A stretch of 64,000 nt of DNA from Eubacteriaceae bacterium (GTDB taxonomy: Bacteria > Bacillota > Clostridia > Lachnospirales > Lachnospiraceae). Below, piece by piece: positions 5,919 to 62,966 of the stretch (within the stretch, counting starts at the first letter, position 1; each line of letters begins with the position of its first letter). A model generated the notes under the pieces. The model worked only from the letters and a program-made list of their open reading frames with translations. It was not told the origin of the DNA and made no database searches. The translations under genes and the position numbers were made by a program. The DNA lies in contig CAJTFB010000017.1 of NCBI GenBank assembly GCA_910575665.1, forward strand, positions 1-64,000, written 5' to 3'.

Positions 5919-7574
5919 TTTCACAGCCATGCGATAGAGCTTTCGTCCCATTGGGAAATCAAACATTTCTTCCTTTGTCATTCCCCGCAGTTTGAGGAAT
6001 ACCACAAAATAAACGACAACAGCTGTGATCAAAGCCAGGATCACAGATACCGCATTTGCCATATACCCTCCCAGGAAGGAAGAAAACAGTTTATCCGACA
6101 AGGTATAGACCAGAACAACAGCGATCGACATCCACAGGGAGGCAGACAGCGGCACAAAAAACGTTTTTAATGGTTTTAGGCGCAGGGATGGAATGTAACG
6201 CCGTAACGCCAGCAAATTCAGTATGCTGACAACAATCGGGAAGGTTACATTACCGATGATAAGCACATAGATACCCAGTCCCGTAAATTTTAACAGACAC
6301 ACCACGAGAATCACATGAATCCCAAGGGAGATCGCCGAATGGATGACAGGTGTGTGCATTCTATCAATGCTCTGGAGTGCACTGCCTGTCACATTGGAAA
6401 TTGCATAAAACACAATGGCTGCAGAACCGGCAAGCATAAGATGTCCTCCCAAAACGTAATTGGAGGAAGGAAACAGAAGTCTTACAATGGACTGTCCGAG
6501 AACTGTATAGCCCATGGCACAGGGAAATGCAATGATCATATTAAACTTGATTCCAGAAAGGATATTATTTTTGAGCTGCACCGTATCCTTTTCGGTAAAT
6601 GCCGCCACCGCACTCGGAACCATAGAGGATGCGATGGAAGTGGATATGGCGATGGGCACACTGGTAAGCACCCGGTATTTGGAGCTGTATACGCCCACCA
6701 GCGATTTGATCGTCACCGGATCCATACCTCTGCCCCCCATAATGTCTCCGAATAGGTAATAATCTACCAGGCCGCTGATCTGATAAACCGTCTGGCTCAG
6801 AATAATAGGCAAAATTGTCAAAAACAGGATACGATAAATATGTGAAGCAGAATACAACCGCCGTCCCCGGTCTCGCCGCTCCAATTTTCTTTGTACCGGG
6901 CGGTAGATATAGTAAACAAATACTACAAGCAGAAGTGCCGAAAATGCACCGAGGCAGGTTCCCAACGTACCTCCTGCCGCCCCCCAGGCGCTCTTGTCAA
7001 GACTGTCTATATTCCACTGGATAAACAAATAGGCCGCCGACACACTGACGATGGCGTTTACCACCTGTTCTAAAACCTGGGAAACCGCGGTAGGCACCAT
7101 GGTCTTTTTTCCCTGGAAAAATCCACGGAACACGCCGAGCAGCGCCACGATAAATATCGTGGGAGCCAGCACTCGCAAAGGAATGTGCACCCCCGCGTAA
7201 TCAGGATAAATATTTTTCTCGATCCATCCGGCAAAAACAAAGAGCAGGATTCCAAATACCCCGCCTGACACAACGGCAAACAACAGAGCCAGACGAAAGG
7301 TTTTACCAATATTCTTATATTCCCGCTTTATGTTCTGGGCAGATATGATCTTGGAAAGTGCCAGCGGCAGGCTATAAGACGATACAATCAAAAGAATATC
7401 GTAGATATCAAACGCCACCGCATAAATCCCATTTCCCTCTTCTCCCAGTATATTGGACATAGGGATCCGGTATGCCATGCCAATAAAACGCACGATAAGG
7501 GATGCCATCGCCAATATGCTGCCATGTTTGAGAAAATCTGCACTTTTCTTGTTATCCTGATTGTTTGTACTCAT
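5901..7574 (-). CDS. Polysaccharide/lipid flippase of the MOP superfamily (SpoVB/MurJ-like)
   Basis: A 557-residue membrane protein with about 14 helices and the conserved start of the group (RFIGMAYRIPMSNILGEEGNG), which marks the SpoVB/YtgP branch. These proteins flip lipid-linked oligosaccharides such as lipid II, either generally or during spore cortex synthesis. Length and topology are normal for the family. AAAGGT precedes the ATG. It is convergent with the carboxypeptidase gene and follows the DUF3048 gene by 15 bases, so the two are probably co-transcribed. SpoVB and MurJ-like roles cannot be told apart here. Confidence 0.85.
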   Translation of the reverse strand: MSTNNQDNKKSADFLKHGSILAMASLIVRFIGMAYRIPMSNILGEEGNGIYAVAFDIYDILLIVSSYSLPLALSKIISAQNIKREYKNIGKTFRLALLFAVVSGGVFGILLFVFAGWIEKNIYPDYAGVHIPLRVLAPTIFIVALLGVFRGFFQGKKTMVPTAVSQVLEQVVNAIVSVSAAYLFIQWNIDSLDKSAWGAAGGTLGTCLGAFSALLLVVFVYYIYRPVQRKLERRDRGRRLYSASHIYRILFLTILPIILSQTVYQISGLVDYYLFGDIMGGRGMDPVTIKSLVGVYSSKYRVLTSVPIAISTSIASSMVPSAVAAFTEKDTVQLKNNILSGIKFNMIIAFPCAMGYTVLGQSIVRLLFPSSNYVLGGHLMLAGSAAIVFYAISNVTGSALQSIDRMHTPVIHSAISLGIHVILVVCLLKFTGLGIYVLIIGNVTFPIVVSILNLLALRRYIPSLRLKPLKTFFVPLSASLWMSIAVVLVYTLSDKLFSSFLGGYMANAVSVILALITAVVVYFVVFLKLRGMTKEEMFDFPMGRKLYRMAVKLKLMK

Positions 7575-17924: not shown

Positions 17925-19556
17925 TTAGTTCTTCCTTTCACTTACAATCTGCAGCGCCACTCGCAACCCGTCCATGGCCGCTGACATGATTCCTCCAGCG
18001 TAGCCAGCTCCCTCCCCACAGGGATAGATCCCCTTCCGGTTCTCCGACTCAAATTCACTGTTCCGGAGAATGCGCACCGGTGAAGAAGTTCTCGTCTCAG
18101 TGCCAAGGACCAGAGTTTCCTCTGCATCAAAGTCTGTTATCTTTTGTCCAAACTGCCTCATACCTTCCATAATACCATTTGATATATAGGAGGGCAATAT
18201 TTTTTTCACATCTGCCAGCACAAATTTTCCCTTGGTCACTGGTGAACCGTGATTTAGCTCTGTCGTGGGCACTCCCTTCACAAAATCTCCGTACCGCTGA
18301 ACCGGGATCATTCCCTTACCTGCCTGCCAGGTTTTCTCCTCCAGTCTCCGCTGGAATGCAACCCCCGCCAGCACGTCATCGCTGCCAAAATCCCCTTTGT
18401 CCACCGTCACCACGATAGCGCTGTTGGCATGAGCGGAATCCCTGGCGTGGTCGCTCATACCATTAACCACCGTACCGCCTGACTCCGTGGAAGCATTTAC
18501 CACATACCCGCCAGGACACATACAAAAACTATAAACCCCTCTGCCATCCGAAGTCTTTCCCGTCAATTTATAATCCGCCGCCGGAAGCCTGGAATCCTCC
18601 ACACCGTACTGCATCTTATTGATGCTCTGCTGCGGGTGCTCCACCCGCACCCCCACTGCAAAGGGCTTCTGCTCCATGGCTGTCCCGTCCTCACGCAGCA
18701 TGAAAAAGGTATCTCTGGCGCTGTGACCGATGGCAAGCACACATTGATCACAGGGGATCTCTTCTGTCTCTCCCCTTTCATTTTCCACTACAACAGCCCT
18801 CAGCTGCTTTTGTCCTGGTCCGCTCTCTTCTTCCACATACCGGAATCCTGTCAGTCTGGTATGAAAGAGGTAGGTTCCCCCTAACTGACGGATAGTCTCT
18901 CCCATAGACTGGATCACACCTCTTAACTCGTCCGTACCAATATGGGGCTTGGAGAGGTAACCGATCTCTTCTGGGGCGCCGTGCTGGATAAAGGTATCCA
19001 GAATAAATTTCTTTTTCCCCGTCTTATCCTTGACACCAGTGTTGAGCTTGCCATCGGAAAATGTTCCCGCTCCTCCCTCGCCAAAAGAAACATTCGTTTC
19101 CGGATCAAGAATCCCATCCTTCCAGAAGGCAGATACTTTTCCCACCCGCTCCCACATCGGCGCTCCCCGTTCGATTAGAAGCGGTTTTCTGCCGCACAGG
19201 GCAAGATAGTAGCCACAGAGAAGTCCGGCAGGTCCCGTTCCCACGATCACCACCTGCTCCCCTGTCTCTTTTTTCAGTTTGGGTACCATATCCTCCAAAG
19301 AGGGCTGGGAGACATACACAGAAAGCTTTTTGTCTTTTCGGTTTTTTTGCAACACCCTTTGTTCCTGATCACACTCAAAAGCCACCGAATAACTGAAGTA
19401 AATCTGTGGCTTTTTTCTGGCATCAATGCTCTTTTTTAATATTTTGATCTGATTTATCTCCGACTCACGGATCCGAAGAATCTCCGCTATTTTTTTCCGC
19501 AATTCCTCGATAGAATCCCTGCGGTAGTCTAATTTACACTGACTGTATTGTAACAT
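17925..19556 (-). CDS. FAD-dependent dehydrogenase (COG2509-like)
   Basis: The 543-residue protein has an unusual N-terminal alpha/beta part (about residues 1-90), then a dinucleotide-binding motif VIVGTGPAGLLCGYYLAL and further family motifs SFGEGGAGTFSDGKLNTGV, CVLAIGHSARDTF and the C-terminal CGEGAGYAGGIMSAAMDG. These define a widespread bacterial family of FAD-binding proteins of unknown substrate. The 3' end of the upstream flavoprotein gene overlaps its start by 23 bases, so the two are co-expressed and may function together. Confidence 0.88.
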   Translation of the reverse strand: MLQYSQCKLDYRRDSIEELRKKIAEILRIRESEINQIKILKKSIDARKKPQIYFSYSVAFECDQEQRVLQKNRKDKKLSVYVSQPSLEDMVPKLKKETGEQVVIVGTGPAGLLCGYYLALCGRKPLLIERGAPMWERVGKVSAFWKDGILDPETNVSFGEGGAGTFSDGKLNTGVKDKTGKKKFILDTFIQHGAPEEIGYLSKPHIGTDELRGVIQSMGETIRQLGGTYLFHTRLTGFRYVEEESGPGQKQLRAVVVENERGETEEIPCDQCVLAIGHSARDTFFMLREDGTAMEQKPFAVGVRVEHPQQSINKMQYGVEDSRLPAADYKLTGKTSDGRGVYSFCMCPGGYVVNASTESGGTVVNGMSDHARDSAHANSAIVVTVDKGDFGSDDVLAGVAFQRRLEEKTWQAGKGMIPVQRYGDFVKGVPTTELNHGSPVTKGKFVLADVKKILPSYISNGIMEGMRQFGQKITDFDAEETLVLGTETRTSSPVRILRNSEFESENRKGIYPCGEGAGYAGGIMSAAMDGLRVALQIVSERKN

Positions 19557-46428: not shown

Positions 46429-47478
46429 CTACATAGCCACCCTCCATAGTTCATCTTGGAACATTTCTTCCGCGCTCCTCCATCCAAACATCTTACGTGG
46501 GTACTGGTTCATCCACCGCTCCAGCTTCTTTATATCCCGTCTTGGTACATCATCAAAGCTTCCGCCTTTTGGATAAAATCTTCTAACCAGTTTGTTATTA
46601 TTTTCGTTTGATCCACGCTCACTGCTACAATATGGATGACAATAATATATTTTTGTCCGGTTCTTCTTATTTCTTCTGGAACGCTCCATCCCCTGCCAGT
46701 CTGAAAACTCTGTCCCATTATCAACCGTAATCGTTTTGAACATTGTCCTAAACACTTTTTCCGTGTACTTTCTTTCCAGTCTATCCATAACACGTACCAC
46801 TTCCGACATGGTGTGTTCATTTAACGGTTCAATTATTTCTATCCGTGTTTTCCTCTCCGTAAGAACCAGCAGGGATTTCTTTGATTTGCCCTGTCCTCCA
46901 ACAACTGTATCCATTTCCCAATTTCCCACCTCATTACGATCCATGACTTCCAGCGGTCGTTCCTCGATACTTGTTCCTGCACTCAAACGCTTCCGAACCT
47001 TACGCTTTCTTTTTCCTTTTTTCTTGGAACGATAAGGGCAATCCGCCATAGTAAGATTAAGAAATATTCCACCTTTAATGTAATTATATAATGTAGTCAG
47101 ACATATTTTCGTATCAAACTGCAAATTCATTTTCTTTATCATCACAAGAGCAACTGCTGGAGAATTTTTTTCATCCCCGACTGTCTTCTCCACAAATTTT
47201 ACAAACTTATAGTCATTCCCAATTTTTAAAGGACGTCCCTTTTTCTTCTTATTTGCATTGGCCTTTTCCTGTGCCATATCCGGGCTATAAATCTCCCTTT
47301 CTGTCCAGTCAGAATTGCGTCTTTTAGTTTTTCCGCGTTTTAACTCCCGATAAATTGTACTGTGATGGAATCCGAGCTGATCTGCTATCTCCTTCGGCTT
47401 AAGTCCGGCATTATACAATGCTTCGATTCTTAGTCTGTCTTCCCATTTAATCGTTTTATACCTTTTTTCTGTTTGCAT
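46429..47478 (-). CDS. IS30-family transposase
   Basis: The 349-residue transposase has an N-terminal helix-turn-helix (EIADQLGFHHSTIYRELKRG), a basic middle part (about 165-185) and a DDE core: NWEMDTVVGGQGK for the first Asp, ITVDNGTEFSDW for the second and the SNENNNKLVRRFYPKGGSF segment with the Glu. Length fits IS30. AAAGGATTTCAAGAAGG precedes the ATG. I could not find convincing terminal inverted repeats or a target duplication, so the borders of the element are open; the gene itself appears intact. Confidence 0.92.
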   Translation of the reverse strand: MQTEKRYKTIKWEDRLRIEALYNAGLKPKEIADQLGFHHSTIYRELKRGKTKRRNSDWTEREIYSPDMAQEKANANKKKKGRPLKIGNDYKFVKFVEKTVGDEKNSPAVALVMIKKMNLQFDTKICLTTLYNYIKGGIFLNLTMADCPYRSKKKGKRKRKVRKRLSAGTSIEERPLEVMDRNEVGNWEMDTVVGGQGKSKKSLLVLTERKTRIEIIEPLNEHTMSEVVRVMDRLERKYTEKVFRTMFKTITVDNGTEFSDWQGMERSRRNKKNRTKIYYCHPYCSSERGSNENNNKLVRRFYPKGGSFDDVPRRDIKKLERWMNQYPRKMFGWRSAEEMFQDELWRVAM

Positions 47479-50565: not shown

Positions 50566-50931
50566 CTAATCTTTTTTCTCGATATTGACACCTGTACTGT
50601 CTATGCTGATCAGCAGCACGCAGTAATCAAGCATAACCTGAAAGAACACCTGCGACACATTACATCCCTTTTCTTCCGCCACAGCTTCCAGCTGCTTTCG
50701 CTGTTCATCTTCGATATATACGGTCAGCAGCGCTTTCCTCTCAATGTAAGCCGGGTCGCTGCGCTGGGTAAGCAGGATCCGGGGATCGATCTTTCTATCG
50801 CCCTCCATAAAGTACCGGATCGCCCGTCTGGGAAAAACAACTGTCTTGCTGATCTCTTCCCTCTTTGCAAGAAAATCCACCAGTTCAAAAACCTCCTGCG
50901 ATACATAGCCTGAATAAAGTCTTTTTGACAT
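50566..50931 (-). CDS. Ribbon-helix-helix-like DNA-binding protein (two predicted copies)
   Basis: The 121-residue protein appears to contain two RHH-like units: YSGYVSQEVFELVDFLAKRE plus helix at about 5-45, and LTVYIEDEQRKQLEAVAEEKG plus NVSQVFFQVMLDYC at about 67-105. Such proteins regulate partition or transfer genes on plasmids. A GGTCA-N4-TGACC palindrome lies 22 bases upstream of its ATG and overlaps the parB stop. It is the last gene of the parA-to-RHH run, ended by a strong terminator. Function is inferred. Confidence 0.65.
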   Translation of the reverse strand: MSKRLYSGYVSQEVFELVDFLAKREEISKTVVFPRRAIRYFMEGDRKIDPRILLTQRSDPAYIERKALLTVYIEDEQRKQLEAVAEEKGCNVSQVFFQVMLDYCVLLISIDSTGVNIEKKD

Positions 50932-50953: not shown

Positions 50954-50967
50954 GGTCATTAGTGACC
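50954..50967. repeat. GGTCA-N4-TGACC palindrome 1
   Basis: GGTCA-TTAG-TGACC; the perfect arms extend to GAGGTCA/TGACCTC (50952-50969). It contains the parB stop codon and lies 22 bases before the ATG of the RHH gene. Confidence 0.9.
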
Positions 50968-51939
50968 TCCCAACAAGTTTTCTATCTGCCTTATATAAAA
51001 ATGATATTTTTCTTCGCTGGATTCGTCAAGTAAAACTTTATTTTCTTTCAGATTTTTAATGATCTCCGCCGTATCTTCCATAAACATGTCCGACGTAATC
51101 TGTCTGGTTTTTGCATTTGCCTTCTTATACTTCTTTACATCGCCGGAATTGATATTCTTACTCTCAGAATCCCTGGCAAGGTCAGCCTGTTCTGCTTCAT
51201 TCAGGCTTTCCACTGCTTTGGCTGCCACACTCACTGACACTTTATTATTCAGAAGCGCATCCTTCAGGGCATTACTTCCACGCTTATTTACTCTTTCAAA
51301 CTTGTTGATCTGCCCCCTGGACAATCCCGTCGTCTTTGTCAGGATATCCCTTGTTGTCTCGCCCTTGATCTGGATCTTCCCTTCTTCCCCGTCTTCGTCT
51401 GAACCGTCAATGTACTCGATCCCTTTTGACCTCAGCTCTTCAATGATGTTTTTCCATTCCTGGATCTCGATATACATATCGCCATCCGTGTATTTTCTCG
51501 CTTCCTTGTTTGTAATGATAATCGCATATCTCTCCTTGTTTGTCTCGCTTAAAGGCAGCTTGATCAGCTCTGTGCCACGATCTACACATGGAATCAGGGT
51601 ATCTTCCGTCCAGCCAGAAACTTCTTTATCCGCAATCAGGCGGTCAATGGCTGCCAGTCTGCGCTCCCCGCCTAAAAGCAGGTATCTTCCATCCGGCTTC
51701 CGGCTTACATGCAAAGGTTCTATCAGTGTGTAGTCGCGGATTGAATTTGCCAGAGAAGTAATGCCTTTTATACTGTATTTGTTATTTGGATTTTTATCTA
51801 TCATGTTCCTCGGAACATTTATGGTTTTTGTCATCACTTGATTTTTCGACACTTCTGACAACAAACCAGCACCTACCTGGACTTTCTCTTCCTGATTTTT
51901 CGTTACTCCTTTTATAGAATCAACACTAAATTTCCCCAT
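50959..51939 (-). CDS. parB: ParB-family partition/DNA-binding protein
   Basis: The 326-residue protein has a ParB N-terminal CTP-binding domain (about 40-125: KPDGRYLLLGGERRLAAIDRL is the GERR-containing box), a middle helix-turn-helix region (about 195-245: ILTKTTGLSRGQINKFERVNKRG, then KVSVSVAAKAV) and a C-terminal helical tail. ParB binds centromere-like sites and works with ParA in segregation of plasmids and integrative elements. A palindrome of the GGTCA-N4-TGACC family lies 22 bases before its ATG and another one over its stop. Confidence 0.88.
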   Translation of the reverse strand: MGKFSVDSIKGVTKNQEEKVQVGAGLLSEVSKNQVMTKTINVPRNMIDKNPNNKYSIKGITSLANSIRDYTLIEPLHVSRKPDGRYLLLGGERRLAAIDRLIADKEVSGWTEDTLIPCVDRGTELIKLPLSETNKERYAIIITNKEARKYTDGDMYIEIQEWKNIIEELRSKGIEYIDGSDEDGEEGKIQIKGETTRDILTKTTGLSRGQINKFERVNKRGSNALKDALLNNKVSVSVAAKAVESLNEAEQADLARDSESKNINSGDVKKYKKANAKTRQITSDMFMEDTAEIIKNLKENKVLLDESSEEKYHFYIRQIENLLGGH

Positions 51940-51961
51940 ATTCCTCTTCCTTTCTTCTACA

Positions 51962-51975
51962 GGTCATCTGTGACC
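51962..51975. repeat. GGTCA-N4-TGACC palindrome 2
   Basis: GGTCA-TCTG-TGACC, between the vapD-like gene and parB, 22 bases before the parB ATG. Confidence 0.9.
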
Positions 51976-51995
51976 CTTTCTTTTATCCATGCCTT

Positions 51996-52436
51996 CTAAC
52001 GATCCAAATTTATTCTTTTAGGCTTTCTGCTTTTTGCTGGTCTTTGCCCTTCTTTCCTCTGTTTATCAAAAATATCTTTCAGATCCATCTCTTTCTCCAG
52101 TCCGTTCTGTGACAGTTCCCCCATATCCTGAAAAACGCCTGTAATATCATGTTCCTCCGAAATCCTGGCATAGCTCATTTTTTTCACGCATTCTTTCAGC
52201 CACGATTTTTCATCCTGCAATGCTTTTACTGTACGGATGACATCAGATCTATCCTTTTCACTGACCGAATGGTACACGGATCCCTGCTCATGCTCATATC
52301 CTTCTTTCTTCATAAACGAACGTATCTCATGATAAGCATTCGTGTAGTCATGCCCGCTCGATGGTTCATAGATATTTTTTAACGCTTGAACGTCCAGATC
52401 AAAATAGACGGAAACCCGGCTTTCACTATTTTCCAC
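51996..52436 (-). CDS. VapD-like endoribonuclease (Cas2-like fold) with C-terminal extension
   Basis: Residues about 8-95 follow the VapD pattern: a first strand with acidic residues (SVYFDLDVQAL), an alpha helix (YTNAYHEIRSFMKKEGYE), the highly typical HEQGSVYHSV strand and a second helix followed by KECVKKMSYARISEEHDIT. VapD proteins are Cas2-related ribonucleases and act as toxins in some plasmid and chromosomal systems. A basic tail of about 45 residues (ending KSRKPKRINLDR) is not part of the classic 90-residue protein. It overlaps the upstream gene by 11 bases, as in two-gene toxin-antitoxin units. Confidence 0.75.
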   Translation of the reverse strand: MENSESRVSVYFDLDVQALKNIYEPSSGHDYTNAYHEIRSFMKKEGYEHEQGSVYHSVSEKDRSDVIRTVKALQDEKSWLKECVKKMSYARISEEHDITGVFQDMGELSQNGLEKEMDLKDIFDKQRKEGQRPAKSRKPKRINLDR

Positions 52437-52752
52437 TTATGGCACCTGATTTCTGATGTCTGGCATCCCATGCCAGCTTCCCGGCTTTTAGGTCTTCCCT
52501 GCCTCCTTTGTCGTCATCCATATACCACTCACTGATCAGATCAAAAAACCAGTCCGTTCTTTCCAGCGTGAGCATGGCAACACCAAACGAAGCCAGTTCT
52601 TTGGATGAAGTAATCCCCGTATAACGTCCTTCTCCTGTTTTAATGATCTCCGGTCTGTTGTAAACCTGATCCACAAGTGTCATCACTTTATCATAATCCA
52701 GATTCTGTTCCTCAACCTTTTTCCGGTCTAATTTTAACATTACTTTAAACAT
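52426..52752 (-). CDS. Unknown protein, putative partner of the VapD-like protein
   Basis: The 108-residue protein starts MFKVMLKLDRKKVEEQNLDY and ends with a charged tail; it has no motif I recognise. The start at 52752 has AGGA 5 bases upstream; upstream ATGs at 52764 and 52821 lack a site. It overlaps the VapD-like gene by 11 bases, so the pair is translationally coupled. A VapX-type antitoxin role is plausible from position, but there is no sequence proof. Confidence 0.6.
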   Translation of the reverse strand: MFKVMLKLDRKKVEEQNLDYDKVMTLVDQVYNRPEIIKTGEGRYTGITSSKELASFGVAMLTLERTDWFFDLISEWYMDDDKGGREDLKAGKLAWDARHQKSGAISGK

Positions 52753-52975
52753 GCTTTTCCTCATTTCTACTACAATATACTTATGGTTAATATCCCTTAC
52801 AACCAGTAAGGAATTACCCATCTGCGTGGTGCTTCAGCTCCGTGCTTTTATTACGCATAACCGATGTTAGCAGCAGGCCATGCTATGGCTTTTCAACGCA
52901 CAGACACAATACCTGCATAGCGAACATAGTTCGCATTAAATTTATTTTTCACTCTTTGCTGCTTCCAGACATAGA
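52753..52975 (-). other. Structured leader before the VapD-like pair
   Basis: No gene is seen in these 223 bases. The minus strand contains several hairpins, among them GCGAAC-TAT-GTTCGC and GCCATAGCATGGC, and paired GCGT/ACGC segments. It may be a processing or attenuator region for the downstream pair. No promoter stands out. Confidence 0.4.
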
Positions 52976-52989
52976 GGTCATAAGTGACC
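52976..52989. repeat. GGTCA-N4-TGACC palindrome 3
   Basis: GGTCA-TAAG-TGACC, extended by one base pair (A/T) on each side. It overlaps the parA stop codon. Confidence 0.9.
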
Positions 52990-53811
52990 TTCTGCTTCAT
53001 TCTGCTTTAAGATATACTCTGTCAGCTCCAGATAATCTTGTGTTACCCTGCTCTTTTTTGTTCCACCGTCATAAGCAAGAAGTGGTTTCTGTACGAGACT
53101 GCTCTCCTCTACATTCTTGCTCTGGCTGATTGTGACCGGAATGATGTACTCACCAAAGATCTCACTCAGCAATTCATAAACCGCTTTTGAAACATTTTTC
53201 CTTCCATTCCATTGGGTGAAGAACATCCCACCGATCCTTAATCCGGCATCATACTCTAATACCGTCTCAAACAGGTTCATGATAATAGATGCACCGAGAA
53301 GGCTCCCACCGTCACAGCGCAGAGGTACATAGACTTCATCCGATGCCACCAATCCGTTTATATTGGTAATGGATATGGAGGGGCTACTGTCTATTATACA
53401 ATAGTCATACTCATCTTGTACAGTCCTTAAATGTTTTTTCAGTCGGAACTGCTGCGGTGATGTAACATCCGCCTTCATCCTCTCCTCGGCTTCTGATAAA
53501 GTCAGAAAACTCGGTATCATATCAAGATTCTCATACTCTGTACGGCGGATACATTCGTGGATATCCAATTCCCGATCCAGCAGCAGATCTTCCACTGACT
53601 TCTGCTTTTTCGTACAGGTTCCCCGATAGATACTGTTAAACAGTTCTATAAAATCTACCTCGCCGAACATGCACGTACTATTCATCTGCGGATCCAGGTC
53701 AATAAGCAACACCCTTTTATTATGTACGGCCGCCAGCATATGTGCCACGGTTGTTACACTGGCTGTTTTTCCAACCCCGCCTTTGTTGTTTAAAAATAAA
53801 ATTGTCTTCAT
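52978..53811 (-). CDS. parA: ParA-family partition ATPase
   Basis: The 277-residue ATPase opens with the deviant Walker A box FLNNKGGVGKTASVTT, followed by LLIDLDPQMNST and the Walker B-like YDCIIDSSPS. ParA binds DNA non-specifically and moves ParB-DNA complexes. It overlaps the upstream 134-residue gene by 4 bases. parA and parB are separated here by the VapD-like pair, an unusual insertion between partition genes that may tie partition to plasmid addiction. Confidence 0.93.
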   Translation of the reverse strand: MKTILFLNNKGGVGKTASVTTVAHMLAAVHNKRVLLIDLDPQMNSTCMFGEVDFIELFNSIYRGTCTKKQKSVEDLLLDRELDIHECIRRTEYENLDMIPSFLTLSEAEERMKADVTSPQQFRLKKHLRTVQDEYDYCIIDSSPSISITNINGLVASDEVYVPLRCDGGSLLGASIIMNLFETVLEYDAGLRIGGMFFTQWNGRKNVSKAVYELLSEIFGEYIIPVTISQSKNVEESSLVQKPLLAYDGGTKKSRVTQDYLELTEYILKQNEAEGHL

Positions 53812-54212
53812 TTGTCTTCCCCTTCCTGTATCATTACATACCTAAAATTCTTTACATCAACATTACTCATATATTCCTCTGCCTGCTTCTGGTTTTCAAA
53901 TCTGATCCCGGTATCTTCCCAATCGCCGTCCTCCGCATCTACACAATGTAAAAGCTTTGCCGGCTTATCTTTAATAAATTCGCTGTAAAACCAATCTTCC
54001 ACTGGAGTACCGTATTCATCGTATTGCTTTGTTGTATGCCCTATTATATTCAGTTGTGGCAACGCACCATGAAAAGATACATTTCCAGAATATTTGATTC
54101 CGTTTACTTCAAATTTTACAAACCATAAACCGCATTGTTCCGGATTTCTTATAAGTTCTCGTTTAAATCCATAATACTTCTCAATTGCAGCCAGTAATTC
54201 TTCTTTTTCCAT
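53808..54212 (-). CDS. Unknown protein encoded before parA
   Basis: The 134-residue acidic protein has an alternating strand pattern (LWFVKFEVNGIKYSGNVSF) and a C-terminal helix-strand part ending MIQEGEDK; I do not recognise a family. The ATG at 54212 is 8 bases after AGGAG; a GTG at 54215 is also possible. It is the first gene after the promoter at 54288-54317 and overlaps parA by 4 bases, so it belongs to the partition operon. Confidence 0.6.
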   Translation of the reverse strand: MEKEELLAAIEKYYGFKRELIRNPEQCGLWFVKFEVNGIKYSGNVSFHGALPQLNIIGHTTKQYDEYGTPVEDWFYSEFIKDKPAKLLHCVDAEDGDWEDTGIRFENQKQAEEYMSNVDVKNFRYVMIQEGEDK

Positions 54213-54287
54213 CACTTTTACTCCTTTCCTGTATTCCAGCCAGATAGTCTTTCGGATTACAAACGGGCTTTTATCTCTACGCTATTT

Positions 54288-54317
54288 ATTATATAGCAAT
54301 TATATAATAAATGTCAA
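54288..54317 (-). promoter_or_regulatory. Promoter of the parA-parB operon
   Basis: On the minus strand TTGACA (54312-54317) and TATAAT (54288-54293) are 18 bases apart, about 75 bases upstream of the first gene. The surrounding TTATATAAT repeats resemble those near 48661. Confidence 0.65.
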
Positions 54318-54363
54318 TGCAAATCTGCCATCTTTTTTGACAAATTGCAATTTTAAAGATACA

Positions 54364-54377
54364 GGTTATTCATGACC
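54364..54377. repeat. GGTCA-N4-TGACC palindrome 4 (one mismatch)
   Basis: GGTTA-TTCA-TGACC; the left arm has one mismatch. It overlaps the stop codon of the relaxase gene and lies upstream of the parA operon promoter. Confidence 0.7.
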
Positions 54378-55616
54378 CCTGTTTTCTTTTTCCGCATCGT
54401 ATTTCATCATTTGGTCATGCTCCCGCTCATTCTTTGCCTTTTCCCATTCGGATTTCAACCCTTTTCTCATTCGATTGACAGCAGATGCCAGTGACATTCC
54501 ACCTGCTACCTGTTTTGTATACTTCTGCTGCTTTTCCCTTGACACCATTTCTTTCTGCTCCGCATCAAACCTACGCACTTCCTTCAAGATCGCATTACCG
54601 AGCCTGGTATACAGATCCTTCATCTTTCCTTCTTCATATGTCTTCCCGGTTGAACCATATGCCTCTTCATATTTCTTGCTCTGTGCCCCGATCCGAGTTT
54701 TAAGTTCATCAAATTTCTCCCGGTGGTACTCATTCAGGTAATGCGTACTGAGATCATCCAGATCATTCCTCACAGATGCCATAACCGGATTGTTATAGTT
54801 CCACATGTTACGGTTACAATCGGGCATTTTCTGGTACAGTCTGATGAATTCCTGTTTCAGCTTCCTGTCTCTGGAAAGAGGATGTTTCTGTTTCTGGTAC
54901 ACAATGCTCCCCCGGATGATGCTGTTAATCTGCTCATTGTTTTCTTTTTCATGCAGGATCTCATTTACAATGCTTCGCCGGCAGCTGTTAATACTCGATT
55001 GACGGAAACGACCCTTGTATTCTTCCTTTTTTACCAAATTTCCCAAAGCGTCCCTCATCGGTTCCCGGATCTTTTTTCCATCGACATTTCGGTACTGGTA
55101 CTGGATGTATTCTTTTTTCTCCCGCATCGGCTCTGGCTCCACTGCTGCAATATGTACATGGATGTTGTCTGTGTTATAATGAATCGCCCCGCTCCACACC
55201 GCATGTTCCAGCCCTTCCGATTCCAGCATTTTATTTACGGCATTTCTGGCAATGGATTTGATACTTTGCTCATCCAGTATTTGTGTTTCTGAATCATATA
55301 AACCGTTCTTTTCCAGCCAGCGGTTATCAAAAGAGATCACCGTCTGCCACATAAGGGAATCATTTTCCTGTGCCTTTTCAAAAATGTTTTTAAGATTTTC
55401 CTTTTCCGTTTCTGAAAGGTCATTTGTGACCTGTGTAAAAAGTCCGGTTGTTTTTTCCGGGTTTCCCATATAATCCTGATACAGATTGTACTTGCTGCTG
55501 TTATCCGTCCGGACGGCCTCCTTCCTGTCAATGTAATTGATATAGGAAGTAAATTTACCGGAACCGGCCTTACAGAATTTTGTTATTACGACCACGCCTG
55601 CCTTTATATTTCCCAT
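54366..55616 (-). CDS. MobP/MobL-type relaxase
   Basis: The 416-residue protein is a histidine-metal relaxase. It has the catalytic-type N-terminus (VVVITKFCKAGSGKFTSYINYIDR, tyrosines at 25 and 28), and the three-His metal site in IHYNTDNIHVHI (His146, 153, 155). The C-terminal 200 residues are helical and basic. Relaxases nick the element at oriT and lead the strand into the recipient. It matches the MobL/MobP2 group common in Firmicutes. Two small DNA-binding proteins precede it on the same strand, as is usual for accessory relaxosome proteins. One palindrome of the GGTCA family lies inside its 5' coding part. Confidence 0.88.
   Translation of the reverse strand: MGNIKAGVVVITKFCKAGSGKFTSYINYIDRKEAVRTDNSSKYNLYQDYMGNPEKTTGLFTQVTNDLSETEKENLKNIFEKAQENDSLMWQTVISFDNRWLEKNGLYDSETQILDEQSIKSIARNAVNKMLESEGLEHAVWSGAIHYNTDNIHVHIAAVEPEPMREKKEYIQYQYRNVDGKKIREPMRDALGNLVKKEEYKGRFRQSSINSCRRSIVNEILHEKENNEQINSIIRGSIVYQKQKHPLSRDRKLKQEFIRLYQKMPDCNRNMWNYNNPVMASVRNDLDDLSTHYLNEYHREKFDELKTRIGAQSKKYEEAYGSTGKTYEEGKMKDLYTRLGNAILKEVRRFDAEQKEMVSREKQQKYTKQVAGGMSLASAVNRMRKGLKSEWEKAKNEREHDQMMKYDAEKENRGHE
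55428..55441. repeat. GGTCA-N4-TGACC palindrome 5 (inside the relaxase gene)
   Basis: GGTCA-TTTG-TGACC within the coding region for residues about 60-65 of the relaxase, the only copy fully inside a gene. Confidence 0.85.
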
Positions 55617-55650
55617 ACATAGTTCCTTTCTTAACCAAAGACAAAGCAGA

Positions 55651-55664
55651 GGTCATTCGTGACC
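55651..55664. repeat. GGTCA-N4-TGACC palindrome 6
   Basis: GGTCA-TTCG-TGACC, 34 bases upstream of the relaxase ATG, in the gap after the preceding small gene. Confidence 0.9.
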
Positions 55665-55688
55665 CCCTGCTCTTATTACTTGAAATAT

Positions 55689-55949
55689 TTAGGGGTCACG
55701 CATGACCCCCGTAATCTTCTCCAGCAGGATGGAGTTGCTTTCTATCACATCGTTTGCCTGCTCCAGTCTTTGTGCCAGCAGATCAATCAGATTAGCATAT
55801 CTGCTGTCAAGTTCCTCCACGTCCTGTACCGTTGCGTACCGTGACAGGCACCGAAGAAGATACTGGTTCCGGCTCATATGATGCTTTTTCGCTAGTTCAT
55901 CGATCTTCTTTACAATGACCGGGTCTGCATTTCTGATCTTAATTTCCAT
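55689..55949 (-). CDS. Small relaxosome-type accessory protein (RHH-like)
   Basis: The 86-residue protein begins MEIKIRNADPVIVKKIDELA and continues KKHHMSRNQYLLRCLSRYA, an RHH or Arc-type pattern, followed by a C-terminal helix (about 45-80) suited to dimer or tetramer formation. The ATG at 55949 is 11 bases after GGAGG, slightly far. It overlaps the preceding gene by 11 bases and stands before the relaxase gene, the usual place for a MobC-like accessory protein. The name is inferred. Confidence 0.6.
   Translation of the reverse strand: MEIKIRNADPVIVKKIDELAKKHHMSRNQYLLRCLSRYATVQDVEELDSRYANLIDLLAQRLEQANDVIESNSILLEKITGVMRDP
55694..55707. repeat. GGTCA-N4-TGACC palindrome 7
   Basis: GGTCA-CGCA-TGACC, with arms extended to GGGGTCA/TGACCCC (55692-55709). 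It covers the last codons of the 86-residue gene. Confidence 0.9.
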
Positions 55950-56157
55950 TTCCCATGCTTCCTCCTTTGGAATCATCTGGCGAATATCTTTTTTCAAATT
56001 CTTCCCATACTGCGGAAGCTATGCTTGATGGCAGACTTTCCCTCTCCTGCCGGATCAGAAATGAAATCGCCTGGCTGTCAGTTTTAAATCCTTTGTTATC
56101 ACGATATTCTCTCAATAACGATAAATCCTCATCCGATATGCTGATACATTTCTGCAT
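55939..56157 (-). CDS. Small RHH-like protein
   Basis: The 72-residue protein starts MQKCISISDEDLSLLREYRD and continues NKGFKTDSQAISFLIRQE, an RHH-type strand-helix-helix pattern close to that of the protein encoded at 56195-56590 (SIYLSEEDVKILKQYKKEKG and SDSQVFSYLLRQ). The two are probably paralogues. A palindrome lies 22 bases before the ATG. It overlaps the next gene by 11 bases. Confidence 0.6.
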   Translation of the reverse strand: MQKCISISDEDLSLLREYRDNKGFKTDSQAISFLIRQERESLPSSIASAVWEEFEKRYSPDDSKGGSMGNGN

Positions 56158-56179
56158 CTCACCTGCTCCTTTCCCAAAA

Positions 56180-56193
56180 GGTCATTTGTGACC
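56180..56193. repeat. GGTCA-N4-TGACC palindrome 8
   Basis: GGTCA-TTTG-TGACC, between the 131- and 72-residue genes and 22 bases before the ATG of the latter. Confidence 0.9.
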
Positions 56194-56194
56194 C

Positions 56195-56590
56195 CTAACC
56201 TTGTTCCTTACTTTTCCGCTCATCACTTTTCTGTTTGAAATAAGCAATCTTTTCCTTGATCCGGTCCTGGCTCTGCTTTACTACTGGATGGGCTGCTATT
56301 TCTACCGGTATACACGCCTCCGCTTTCAGCATATGTAACAGGGTATTCACTGCATCCAGCAATACAATACTGTTCTGTTCCGCTATCCTGGTCGCCCAGC
56401 GGATCCATTCTTTCGGCAGATAGTTCTTCTCCAGCTCCTCCCGGATCATGACGGCAAACTGCTCCCTGTCTGTCTGTGTCTGCCGTAACAGGTATGAAAA
56501 CACCTGGCTGTCTGAATTTAACCCTTTTTCTTTTTTATACTGTTTCAGTATTTTTACATCTTCTTCAGAAAGATAAATTGATTTCTGCAC
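56195..56590 (-). CDS. RHH-like DNA-binding protein with C-terminal helical domain
   Basis: The 131-residue protein has an N-terminal RHH-like unit (about 1-45, with QKSIYLSEEDVKILKQYKKE and SDSQVFSYLLRQTQ) and a helical remainder. The start is taken as GTG at 56590, seven bases after GGAGG; the more distal ATG at 56674 has no ribosome binding site and adds a hydrophobic stretch that is probably leader DNA. It is the first gene of the mobilisation operon, next to the structured region that may be oriT. Confidence 0.6.
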   Translation of the reverse strand: MQKSIYLSEEDVKILKQYKKEKGLNSDSQVFSYLLRQTQTDREQFAVMIREELEKNYLPKEWIRWATRIAEQNSIVLLDAVNTLLHMLKAEACIPVEIAAHPVVKQSQDRIKEKIAYFKQKSDERKSKEQG

Positions 56591-56683
56591 AATCCCGCCT
56601 CCTTTATATATGTTTAATTGTATATTAAATATCAAAAAAATGCAAGTTTTGTATACTTTTTTTAATACTTTCATATGTTTTTA

Positions 56684-56790
56684 TGTCCCCACGAAATCGT
56701 TAGGCTTTGCCTAACCACCACAGTCTTGTGGGGTCAGATTTCCCTTATGCTCTTTCGAAATCTTCTCATTGCTTTTTATGAGAAGATTTC
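56684..56790. repeat. Cluster of inverted repeats, candidate oriT or replication origin part
   Basis: Stems in order: CCCCAC (56684) with GTGGGG (about 56728), enclosing GTTAGGC-TTT-GCCTAAC; then a perfect 13-base inverted repeat GAAATCTTCTCAT / ATGAGAAGATTTC (56757-56769 and 56778-56790). Transfer origins of mobilisable elements typically show such repeats next to mobilisation genes. The nick site cannot be named. Confidence 0.5.
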
Positions 56791-56792
56791 AC

Positions 56793-57286
56793 TGTCCAAA
56801 GGACAGTCAAGTGAAGTAGTAGTACTGTGGAGCTTGTGCGATAACCGGAGTGTTTTTGGATTTGTGGGTAAGTTGGAGGCAACTTGTTTTTTAGTTGTCA
56901 CTAACTTATCCATACATCCAAGCCGGTTATCCATCAAATCCACGGTTATGGTTTGAAAGGAAGAACGTCTTTCGGTATTTGCTGTATGGCAGCCAGTAAA
57001 AGAAAAAGTCCCCCTCAGGGGGATTGAGGGGGGATTCATTGTCCAAAGGACAGTCAAGTGAAGTAGTAGTACTGTGGATCTTGTGCGATAACCGGAGTGC
57101 TTTTGGATTTGTGGGTAAGTTGGTGGCAACTTGTTTTTTTGTTGTCACTAACTTATCCATACTCCAAGCCGGTTATCCATCAAATCCACGGTTATGGTTT
57201 GAAAGGAAGAACGTCTTTCGGTATTTACTGTATAACAGCCAGTATAAGAAAAAGTCCCCCTCAGGGGGATTGAGGGGGGATTCATT
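56793..57286. repeat. Two tandem copies of a structured 247-bp unit
   Basis: Copies at 56793-57039 and 57040-57286 differ at only a few positions. Each begins with the stem TGTCC-AAA-GGACA, contains ATAACCGG and CCGGTTAT about 80 bases apart, AAGTTGG-NGG-CAACTT-type stems and a CCCCCTCAGGGGG hairpin near its end. Open frames inside are repeat-shaped and lack ribosome binding sites, so I treat the region as non-coding. The remaining gap up to 57913 holds no clear gene; short TTTAGACTTT motifs recur at 57661-57780. Confidence 0.85.
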
Positions 57287-57773
57287 CTTTCCCTGTCCAG
57301 TGCATGCTTCGGCTGCCTTCCTGGCAGACAGCACCGGAATGGTCTGGGAGTTCGGGCAGACCTGCGAAGCTGCTGGGAATGGTATCAAAAACATTTTCTT
57401 TTTTATCGTCCTTCTTCTCCCATGCTCTCCGTTTCCCACATCAGTAAACTTTCCTATTCCGGTTCTGACAATTCAAAATTTCTCAAACCAGCTTTCAACA
57501 TTTCTCTCCCATCACCGGCACGTTCCATACGTGCTCACCAAACAAAGAAGTTATTTAATAAAAGAATGAATATAATAAAAGGATTAATATGCTCCCCGCC
57601 TGAAAACTTCCCTTCCCGCCTGAAAACTGTCATCTTCATCACTAACTGGCCGGAAAATATTTAGACCGCTTTTCTCACTTTTTTACCTGGTAAATAGACT
57701 GCCTTCCCAGTAAAAGGAAAAATTTTAGACTTTCATATCTGCTTTTTACCTCTTTTTTAGACTTTTTCCCTCC

Positions 57774-60535: not shown

Positions 60536-62833
60536 TCACTTTAACCTCTCCAATTGCCTGTTTACTGGTTTTGTAGCTCCCTGCCGGCTGCGTTCTCTAT
60601 TAAGCTGCTTTTGTATCGTGTTCAGGATCTCATCCTGGCAGTCTCCCATCTCATGTTCCGGATGCGGAAGGTGTCCTTCCTTCTGCTCGAAAATCCCATT
60701 CAGTTTTTTCTGGTAATTCAAAAAATCTTTTTCCAGTGTACAAGCTTCCTCCAGCAGTTCTACTGCTCTTTGATATTGTATACCATCGGTTTCTCTTAAA
60801 AATTCGATCATGGAGCCATCCCCGTCCCCGATATCCTGCCTTTCAACTATTTTATCCCCCTCCGCCGACAGGTTTACCTGGAATTTTACTTTTGCATAAC
60901 CCATGGCATTCTCTTCTCCGCCACGATTATTTTTACACCATTCCTGATCTGCATTTGCCATCTTGTCACTGAATTCAGATACCAGGTATGTTTTTCCATC
61001 ATCAAAACAATCATGCTCACTCCATTCACATGTCACCGTAGGAAAAAACTTTTTCTTCATACATCTTGAAAACTCCTCTTCTTGTACATAAAGTGTTTTC
61101 TCTTTCCCCGCTTCATAGAGTTGTGATCGGGAATTGATCATATGCGAGTTATTTCCCTCCCGCGTATACAGACTACATTCCTCATCCCACAATCTCCCTG
61201 CCAGGCTTTCTGATACTGAAATTAATGTTTTTCCTGCCATTCCTTCTTGATCCTTTTCAACAGGTATGCTCCTTTCGGATTCGCTTTGCTTTTTTTCTGT
61301 TTCCTGATTCAGCCATCTGTATGTAGTAATTGCATTCTGAACCACCTTTCCAATCGTCTCATGCGTATATGTCCCATAATAAATATTATTATTTTTAAGC
61401 AGCGTCTGGATTTCCTTATCCTTCACAATGCTTTCTTCGAGATTATGGATCCGTCCCTCCTGCTGAAATGATTCCCTATCCCTTTCTACAAAAAAAGAAA
61501 AGTTATGATACTGCCCATGAAGCTCCTGCACCATCCCGCTGTATGCTGCCGTCAGCTCCTGATTATATATAGAATTTAATAAGATCGGAGAATCTGTTAT
61601 AATAAAGTCGGCTTGTCCATATAACCGATCCATTCGATGCACCTGTTCTTTCAATATCTCAAACTGATGTGCCTCTGATCCATCCAGGAGTTCCCAGTTT
61701 TTATCATATACAAGTTCTTTAGCATATTCCTGGACATATTCCGCGTTATATCCCAGTTTCTTCAACTGCTGACAGATATCCATGCACGCTGTGGATTTTC
61801 CGCTTCCAGGCCCACCAAAGGCATTGATTACCACCGGAATTCTTTCAACTGGTACATGATCCAGGTTTCTCTGGTGTTCTGTTACATACTGCTGTTTCTG
61901 CATATCCAGTTCTGCTCTCTGCTGCTTTTCCGGAAAAAATTCTCCTTTTTCTATCAGATAATCTGAAATCTTTTCTGCATCCCGGATTGCAGCAAAAAGC
62001 TCCTGTGGTTCTTTCTCTAGTACCTCTATCCATGACTGGATATATGCCTTATGATTATCCATATGATCCGCTGCCATCTCGCCCAGTCCCAATTCCTGGG
62101 ACGTAAATGCGGAGGCAATTTCTGCCCGCAGTTCCTCCCTGGCATATTTATGACTGCCGAATCCTCCGGACAGATCCCTGTTCAGACGGCTTTCGTGGCC
62201 AGTAGCGTGCCCGCTCTCATGGAGAAAGACTGACATATAATCATAAATACTGCGAAACTGCTCCATCTGCGGAAAAGTAACAGAATCATCCCCCGGCCGG
62301 TAAAAAGCACGGCTTCCACCTTCATGAAACGTAAATCCCATATTCTTGATTAACGTGTCCCTATTATGGAGCAGTCCATCGGATTGAATCGGTTCCTGTG
62401 TTTTCTCCCTCTTAGGAATCCCTTCCACCTGTTCCGCATTAAATACCGTATAAACAGAAGAAATCGGTTTGACACGCTCATAAAAATCCTCTCCCAGCTC
62501 CTTTTTCAAAACATTTGATTCCCTGACGGTCAGTTTCTTCTTTGTTTCCGTGTCATACATCGACCAGAACTCCACCTGCGTCCCATGCTCTCCCTTTTTT
62601 ACCTTCCACCCTTTATCCTTTGCCTGTTTGAACGTACACCAGCGAGGATCGGAATACCCTTTCTGTTCGGCAGTACAGGATAACCAGAAACTATTTACCC
62701 CCCGGTACTCCGTATTACTTACTGTATTATAAGGCCGCTCCGTCATCCACCCTTTTTGCCAGGGCAATTCATTTTCTTTTAAACTCTCTAAAAAGACTTG
62801 TGAAATCTGCTCCCTCACTTTATTCATCTTCAT
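60536..62833 (-). CDS. Polyvalent protein: ArdC-type ssDNA-binding and metallopeptidase domains fused to a P-loop kinase
   Basis: The 765-residue protein has, in order: an ArdC N-terminal ssDNA-binding domain (about 1-135, with YRGVNSFWLS and KGWKVKKGEHGTQVEFW), a zincin metallopeptidase domain with FLHESGHATGHE (HExxH at 205-209), a P-loop domain with GGPGSGKST (340-348) resembling NadR- or polynucleotide-kinase-like enzymes, and a C-terminal part (about 520-765) with a LPD-like region (AMGYAKVKFQVNLSAEGDK). Such polyvalent proteins of conjugative elements and phages are thought to protect incoming DNA from restriction. The start at 62833 follows GGGGGTGTGCTGC and overlaps a 48-residue gene. 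Confidence 0.82.
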   Translation of the reverse strand: MKMNKVREQISQVFLESLKENELPWQKGWMTERPYNTVSNTEYRGVNSFWLSCTAEQKGYSDPRWCTFKQAKDKGWKVKKGEHGTQVEFWSMYDTETKKKLTVRESNVLKKELGEDFYERVKPISSVYTVFNAEQVEGIPKREKTQEPIQSDGLLHNRDTLIKNMGFTFHEGGSRAFYRPGDDSVTFPQMEQFRSIYDYMSVFLHESGHATGHESRLNRDLSGGFGSHKYAREELRAEIASAFTSQELGLGEMAADHMDNHKAYIQSWIEVLEKEPQELFAAIRDAEKISDYLIEKGEFFPEKQQRAELDMQKQQYVTEHQRNLDHVPVERIPVVINAFGGPGSGKSTACMDICQQLKKLGYNAEYVQEYAKELVYDKNWELLDGSEAHQFEILKEQVHRMDRLYGQADFIITDSPILLNSIYNQELTAAYSGMVQELHGQYHNFSFFVERDRESFQQEGRIHNLEESIVKDKEIQTLLKNNNIYYGTYTHETIGKVVQNAITTYRWLNQETEKKQSESERSIPVEKDQEGMAGKTLISVSESLAGRLWDEECSLYTREGNNSHMINSRSQLYEAGKEKTLYVQEEEFSRCMKKKFFPTVTCEWSEHDCFDDGKTYLVSEFSDKMANADQEWCKNNRGGEENAMGYAKVKFQVNLSAEGDKIVERQDIGDGDGSMIEFLRETDGIQYQRAVELLEEACTLEKDFLNYQKKLNGIFEQKEGHLPHPEHEMGDCQDEILNTIQKQLNRERSRQGATKPVNRQLERLK

Positions 62834-62966
62834 GCAGCACACCCCCATCCCATTGGTATAAAATTTCCTGATCTGCCGGTTCGGCAATCAGTTCCTGCGG
62901 TATATCAAAATCCGAGGCATTTACTGTTTTCAAAAAATCAGATTCCCTGTCGCTTTGTTTCCTCAT
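62820..62966 (-). CDS. 48-residue acidic protein coupled to its neighbours
   Basis: A small frame begins MRKQSDRESDFLKTVN and ends GVLHEDE. It has GGAGG 8 bases upstream, overlaps the end of the TadZ-like gene by 4 bases (ATGA) and the start of the polyvalent protein gene by 14 bases. This tight packing, with both overlaps typical of coupled translation, argues for a real gene. The protein is acidic (many Asp and Glu) with no recognised domain; an interaction peptide or a translational coupler are both possible. Confidence 0.6.
   Translation of the reverse strand: MRKQSDRESDFLKTVNASDFDIPQELIAEPADQEILYQWDGGVLHEDE

Follow-up and report, generated by a model that had tools for sequence, protein, structure and literature searches.

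What reads the short palindromes that recur along a partition and relaxase operon in a 64 kb stretch of a Eubacteriaceae genome (contig CAJTFB010000017.1, positions 1 to 64,000; hereafter the window)? The operon comprises ten minus-strand genes in the order RHH159, RHH72, RHH102, mobL, a gene for 135 amino acids (aa), parA, g131, g146, parB and RHH121, where RHH stands for ribbon-helix-helix. The palindromes are a real, element-specific and strongly conserved family of DNA-level sites at gene junctions. Judging from the comparisons below, they are probably binding sites of the parS or KorB-operator type, at which the operon's own ParB would load as a clamp.

We searched the window with the pattern GGTCANNNNTGACC, using dinucleotide shuffles as a control. 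Seven exact copies and one single-mismatch copy of GGTCA-N4-TGACC (N4, four-base spacer) lie within 5.2 kb, at positions 50954–56193 (Table 1), which bears out the number given in a preliminary description of this DNA. Exact matches expected by chance average 0.03 for the window, and none of 100 shuffles reached seven. When one mismatch was allowed, nine matches were observed against a shuffle mean of 1.43. The single match outside the cluster, with one mismatch, is at 18234. A genome-wide count, which had been proposed as a check, gave nine exact matches (4.19 Mb, 163 contigs), seven of them in the operon cluster.

To define placement, we took as junction zone the gaps between genes plus the last 20 nucleotides (nt) of genes. 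This zone covers 9.5% of the operon and holds seven of the eight palindromes (P = 5e-7). The eighth, previously listed at 55428, is located at 55418–55431 and sits inside mobL, so that the placement at gene junctions, like the other seven coordinates, stands for all copies except this one. Measurement of the gaps agreed with the description of three copies exactly 22 nt before start codons (RHH72, ParB and RHH121) and of four overlapping the last codons of the preceding gene (RHH102, MobL, ParA and ParB).

The same operon is present in two metagenome-assembled genomes, at loci L005 (Roseburia; ParB 83% identical to that of the window) and L006 (Eubacterium; 81%), with 11 and 10 exact palindromes, respectively. 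All 11 sites of L005 fall in junction zones (zone 10.7%), as do 9 of the 10 in L006 (zone 8.0%), and outside the operon there is one further exact match in the genome of L005 and two in that of L006. The junction between the auxiliary genes and mobL holds two sites in the window, in L005 and in L006. We compared orthologous sites without gaps at ten places (24 pairwise comparisons), leaving out locus L195 and the L005 sites 4190 and 7882, which have no counterpart. Arms agreed at 238 of 240 positions and loops at 78 of 96; the three bases adjoining the arms agreed at 0.67 and 0.83, and bases farther out at 0.51–0.59. Because the palindrome at the end of parA is read in different frames, with the window frame ending GHL and the L005 frame ending GSQMTS, it is the DNA and not the peptide that is conserved. 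The palindrome at the end of mobL is likewise read in different frames in the window and L005. A third relative, L195 (genome G428; ParB 58%), keeps parA, parB and RHH121 of the operon's genes together with three palindromes, two of them exact and the third with two mismatches. A tblastn search over 19 kb of L195 detected no RHH159, RHH72, RHH102, g131 or g146, and mobL only as a C-terminal remnant.

Across 397 family genomes, the window's own included, the exact motif occurs 0–12 times per genome, with matches in 277. On these counts the motif was rejected as a family-wide repeat. Ten other genomes have at least seven exact matches. Nine of them were examined and showed no comparable cluster but mostly single scattered places, the exceptions being a pair of copies in G295 separated by 15 bp, and repeats located at the ends of contigs in G268 and G307; in the tenth, G260, five of eight places are on five contigs among the matches listed. 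Viral contigs hold at least 120 stretches with GGTCACAAATGACC, with one copy each among the 80 matches listed, and among the viral loci scanned only L087 has a second, looser copy. No ParB relative was found in the viral contigs and no ParB match in plasmid and phage collections, and a plasmid DNA search matched only stretches of the mobL region.

More distant elements carry palindromes of other sequence with the same spacing. The window ParB has matches at an expect value (E) of 1e-10 in 9 of the 397 family genomes, its own included. A profile of RHH121 matched 4 of 392 genomes in an order-wide search, two of them already known, which added L228 and L229; a search of the genus of G308 had matches in 5 of 58 genomes and added L205 and L206. 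L229 has the same gene set as the window (MobL 52%, ParA 48%, ParB 28%) and five perfect GGTGCTA-N4-TAGCACC palindromes, 5/5 at junctions. All 12 copies of this palindrome in its genome, G788, are on the 62.6 kb contig of L229, none wholly within an open reading frame, and one lies 23 nt before a gene for a TraG-type coupling protein. L206 carries five GGTGCCA-N4-TGGCACC sites, which are all the copies in its genome (5/5 at junctions), and L167 carries three GTGGAA-N4-TTCCAC sites (3/3 at junctions), of which one has perfect 7-bp arms and the other two contain a mismatch; by eye, two of the three resemble parts of terminator-like hairpins. Junction counts for L229, L206 and L167 use hand-chosen gene models. 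Single candidates were found in L166 (CGTGTCA-N4-TGACACG, after RHH121) and L228 (GGTGTCC-N4-GGACACC, before parB). In 40 Markov-resampled copies per locus, the largest N4 family with 7-bp arms had one member. Among the six half-site types, numbered outward over seven bases, position 4 is always G (6/6) and position 7 mostly A (5/6).

Site spacing follows the ParB tree. In a midpoint-rooted tree of 21 rows, the ten ParBs that occur with RHH121 group together as a clade (100/100). All nine of its members with a found site have N4, against a five-base spacer (N5) for GTGTCA or GTGTCC sites on the tree's other side. GTGTCA-N5-TGACAC occurs near several ParBs without RHH121. At or within parB we found GTGTC-type palindromes in L169, L171, L172 and L207 and TGTCGG-type palindromes in L168 and L170. 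The pattern GTGTCAGNNTCTGACAC is present at 15 places in 10 of the 397 genomes, against none for the reversed control, and a parB homologue lies within ~1.5 kb in 6 of these 15 loci, representing five distinct genes. Among recognition-helix residues, K..Q goes with a GTGTCA half site in six N5 ParBs (L171, L172, L209, L207, L220 and L211) and in L166, and RGQ.NK goes with GGTCA.

The palindromes have the character of DNA sites for a sequence-specific protein that is diverging, and this protein is most likely ParB. The preliminary description had suggested operators or parS-like sites for ParB or RHH proteins; the comparison and the spacing favour the ParB half of that suggestion. With E up to 1, a domain search found ParB_N in all six ParB members, the best match having 1.3e-9, and the window ParB itself is below the Pfam and NCBIfam cut-offs. 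GERR and TN...R motifs, which we take to be CTPase motifs, could be aligned in it, as could a segment resembling a helix-turn-helix (HTH), GLSRGQINKFE; the domain search gives no HTH family match. A ParA-type ATPase gene, the ParB N-terminal domain and palindromes near par genes are the features of a ParABS system seen here. We propose that ParB would load at each palindrome and slide over neighbouring genes as a cytidine triphosphate (CTP) clamp, that it would form a partition complex with ParA, and that it would repress the promoters of its own operon, placing the partition and relaxase genes under joint control. Autoregulation of the operon and partition would be the likely purpose of such loading. 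RHH121 might serve as co-repressor, as KorA does for KorB, which is speculation. The sites would lie at gene borders because a DNA site of 14–18 bp is tolerated there.

Several observations weigh against ParB as the reader. In L166 and in L228 there is a single candidate, and lone N4 palindromes are near chance in number. L205, an element with ParB and RHH121, lacks an N4 family throughout its 28.3 kb contig, and such a site is missing at parB in L173 and L208. A second, ACCGAAWTTCGGT-like palindrome family, which is possibly an oriT (origin of transfer) or auxiliary-protein site, occurs as doublets or triplets between the auxiliary gene and mobL (L205:2051-2145, L206:6145-6199, L167 ~6760-6820). 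On the N5 side, 9 of the 15 GTGTCAGNNTCTGACAC loci show no parB, and two of the five distinct parB genes near this pattern had defined it. Part of the palindrome conservation there may be protein conservation, because the palindromes cover S-D-T-D-T codons in the parB frame (L168:8116, L170:8320, L171:8163, L172:8350). The L229 ParB has K..Q, yet its site is GGTGCTA, so the helix cannot by itself determine the site. For KorB, one report places specificity outside the HTH (PMC5016525). KorB is also absent from the solved structures matched by the ParB profile described below. Lastly, RHH121 accompanies ParB in every N4 element.

This last point leads to the strongest alternative, that RHH121 or a ParB-RHH121 complex reads the palindromes, with RHH121 binding them as operators and recruiting ParB. 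In its favour, RHH121 is encoded beside or near parB in 10/10 members of the window's ParB clade, L195 included; in L229 two small genes lie between them. However, the palindromes of N5-side ParBs have the GTCA half site in common, and RHH121 is not detected at these loci: the profile found 8/8 tested N4 loci and 0/23 N5-side loci (E up to 10), 15 of the 23 holding only ~1.5 kb per side. Pfam support for the RHH identity is also weak. We regard this alternative as unlikely.

The preliminary description had also suggested RNA hairpins, with stems of 5–7 bp and a C-N-N-A tetraloop acting in processing or translational control ~22 nt before starts. We analyzed 32 sites from four relatives, keeping the two-mismatch site of L195 and leaving out other two-mismatch matches. 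Flanking bases had been said to co-vary so as to keep pairing, but pairing equals the shuffled expectation at four offsets: the flank pair next to the stem is RNA-compatible in 30/32 sites versus 30.0 in shuffles (P 0.70), the second in 21 versus 19.6 (P 0.30), the third in 29 versus 28.8 (P 0.59) and the fourth in 12 versus 12.4 (P 0.65). The loop bias itself was confirmed in the pooled sites (22 C..A, 6 T..G, 4 other) and is accompanied by a flank bias, with G on the left and T on the right in 18/32. Additionally, the nearest site is 22–26 nt before the RHH72, ParB and RHH121 starts, and four hairpins folded at -6.6 to -16.6 kcal/mol. Loop orientation is not kept, however: it is reversed (TTCG) in L195 at parB/RHH121 and after parA, and in 3/5 sites of L229, whose transcript-strand loops are TTTG in three and TAAA in two. 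The arms are GGTCA/TGACC in 30/32 sites with no G-U pair, the odd copy at 54364 breaks transcript-strand pairing, and an Rfam search gave no match at E up to 1. Thus RNA hairpins are very improbable. In the window group, the bias of loop and flanks towards one strand is in our reading a remnant of copying.

Still less credible is a role for RHH102, RHH159 and RHH72 as relaxosome auxiliary proteins that would bind the palindromes as operators, both of the oriT type and for autoregulation. The two sites at the aux/mobL junction in the window, L005 and L006 would fit this role, as would the pLS20 oriT inverted repeat, which is reported as a possible Aux1 site (PMC5675868). Nonetheless, the three proteins are disfavoured because L195 lacks their genes and keeps its sites; L166, also without them, has one palindrome of its own, and the sites reach as far as parA, parB and the RHH121 end. 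There is next to no chance that the palindromes are passive repeats without a dedicated reader (terminators, or elements resembling repetitive extragenic palindromes or miniature inverted-repeat transposable elements): gene-end position would suit them, but a terminator scan flags only 2/8 palindromes, the arms are near-perfect, 7/9 genome copies are in one operon, and sister elements differ in sequence at the same spacing. In that scan one of the two hits is on the opposite strand and a third flagged stem overlaps palindrome 1; the regional total is 7, against 4.6 (standard deviation 2.3) in shuffles, and the intrinsic terminator reading was rejected.

The earlier statement that no element of this kind has been described is too strong, because dispersed palindromes serve KorB of plasmid RK2 (PMC11790492) and ParB of plasmid NAH7 (PMC12421886). 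In RK2 (IncP-1), KorB is a ParB-family protein with dispersed operators that links partition to control of transfer genes (PMC11790492). The window resembles it in its dispersed palindromes, which as predicted ParB sites would likewise connect partition with transfer genes. The KorB operator (OB) measures 16 bp, is positioned with respect to promoters and acts together with KorA, whereas the window sites have a different sequence, lie at most junctions of a single par-relaxase operon, most of them lacking a promoter, and have an RHH-like protein as neighbour. NAH7 (IncP-9) has six similar inverted repeats in intergenic backbone regions, one of which is bound by ParB, which activates transfer genes (PMC12421886). 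Similar inverted repeats in intergenic regions are common to both. The NAH7 site is the 18 bp TTTCTCGCATGCGAGAAA without a spacer, and its six copies are spread over the plasmid versus 8–11 in 6 kb here.

By profile, the closest solved structures are of the chromosomal Noc/Spo0J type: a six-ParB profile matches 11 distinct solved sequences, including Noc and ParB/Spo0J, in the N-terminal part only. Sites and genome context differ from that type. The relaxase side resembles the MOBL module of pLS20 (aux1-aux2-rel), in which small RHH genes directly precede the MobL relaxase (PMC5675868); in the window MobL is likewise preceded by small auxiliary genes, whose RHH support is weak. Unlike pLS20, the window module shares its operon and palindromes with parA-parB-RHH121.

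Two site strings tried against the literature gave no match, no such array at gene junctions appeared in the titles and abstract starts among the matches listed, and no description of the window's ParB clade was found in the literature searched. We infer that the window system, which belongs to a distinct clade in the Lachnospiraceae, would operate in the manner of the dispersed site networks of KorB and NAH7 ParB. A fuller model is possible but doubtful. In it, a conjugative-element ParB clade, together with a tandem-RHH protein, would mark most borders of transfer and partition genes with loading sites, whose sequence is re-specified between elements while spacing and border placement stay fixed. 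Clamps swept off by RNA polymerase would be reloaded between genes, and the RHH protein would be a KorA-like clamp lock.

These Lachnospiraceae mobile elements offer testable ParB/site pairs (half sites GGTCA, GGTGCTA and GGTGCCA with N4; GTGTCA with N5). Such pairs form a natural series in which joint changes of ParB specificity and site spacing could be studied, and in the operon most gene borders have a candidate clamp-loading site. If true, ParB loading would couple the control of partition to that of the relaxase in conjugative elements of the gut.

Table 1. Palindromes, genes and other features of the par-relaxase operon, in window coordinates, with the N5-side site for comparison.
Feature	Position	Strand	Remarks
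Palindrome 1, GGTCA-N4-TGACC	50954..50967		overlaps parB stop; 22 nt before RHH121 start
Palindrome 2	51962..51975		g146/parB junction; 22 nt before parB start
Palindrome 3	52976..52989		overlaps parA stop
Palindrome 4, one mismatch	54364..54377		overlaps mobL stop; 46 bp before -35 of parA-side promoter-like site
Palindrome 5	55418..55431		within mobL; same place in L006, none in L005
Palindrome 6	55651..55664		RHH102/mobL gap; 34 nt before mobL start
Palindrome 7	55694..55707		within last codons of RHH102
Palindrome 8	56180..56193		RHH159/RHH72 gap; 22 nt before RHH72 start
RHH121, tandem ribbon-helix-helix-like protein	50566..50931	-	weak Pfam support
parB-like gene, 326 aa	50959..51939	-	ParB_N 25.1 bits (cut-off 26.3); proposed palindrome reader
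g146 + g131, small proteins between parA and parB	51996..52821	-	present also in L005, L006, L166
parA	52978..53811	-	AAA_31, 146 bits
Exact TTGACA-18-TATAAT promoter-like site, mobL-parA gap	54288..54317	-	
mobL relaxase	54366..55616	-	MobL 283 bits; MobP2 332 bits
RHH102, likely relaxosome auxiliary gene	55689..55997	-	weak domain support; position as in pLS20 (PMC5675868)
RHH72	55939..56157	-	similar to RHH159
RHH159, operon's first gene	56195..56674	-	similar to RHH72
N5-side site, GTGTCAG-AA-TCTGACAC			

One exact promoter-like site is found near a palindrome, the fourth, and in L005 and L006 one palindrome lies before and one after the matching promoter region. Both relatives have a palindrome just before parA, a copy that the window does not have. 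Just upstream of the promoter-like site is a TTTGTCAAAAAAGATGGCA box (54326-54344); the box occurs twice in L196 and in L197, before parA and before a CAP/SpaA-type gene. The 135-aa gene (53808-54215) separates the promoter-like site from parA; tblastn gave no match to it in either L005 or L006.

Outside the operon, an IS30-type transposase gene (HTH_38, rve) at 46429-47478 is linked to the element in the window, L005, L006, L195, L166 and L228, and may encode the element's own mobility enzyme. It was dropped as a palindrome reader because no palindrome lies near its gene. Upstream of the operon, two similar repeats of ~250 bp were seen by eye (56760-57000 and 57024-57290). Positions 60536-62887 encode a 783-aa polyvalent protein with ArdC N-terminal, zincin-like peptidase, AAA and LPD25 domains.

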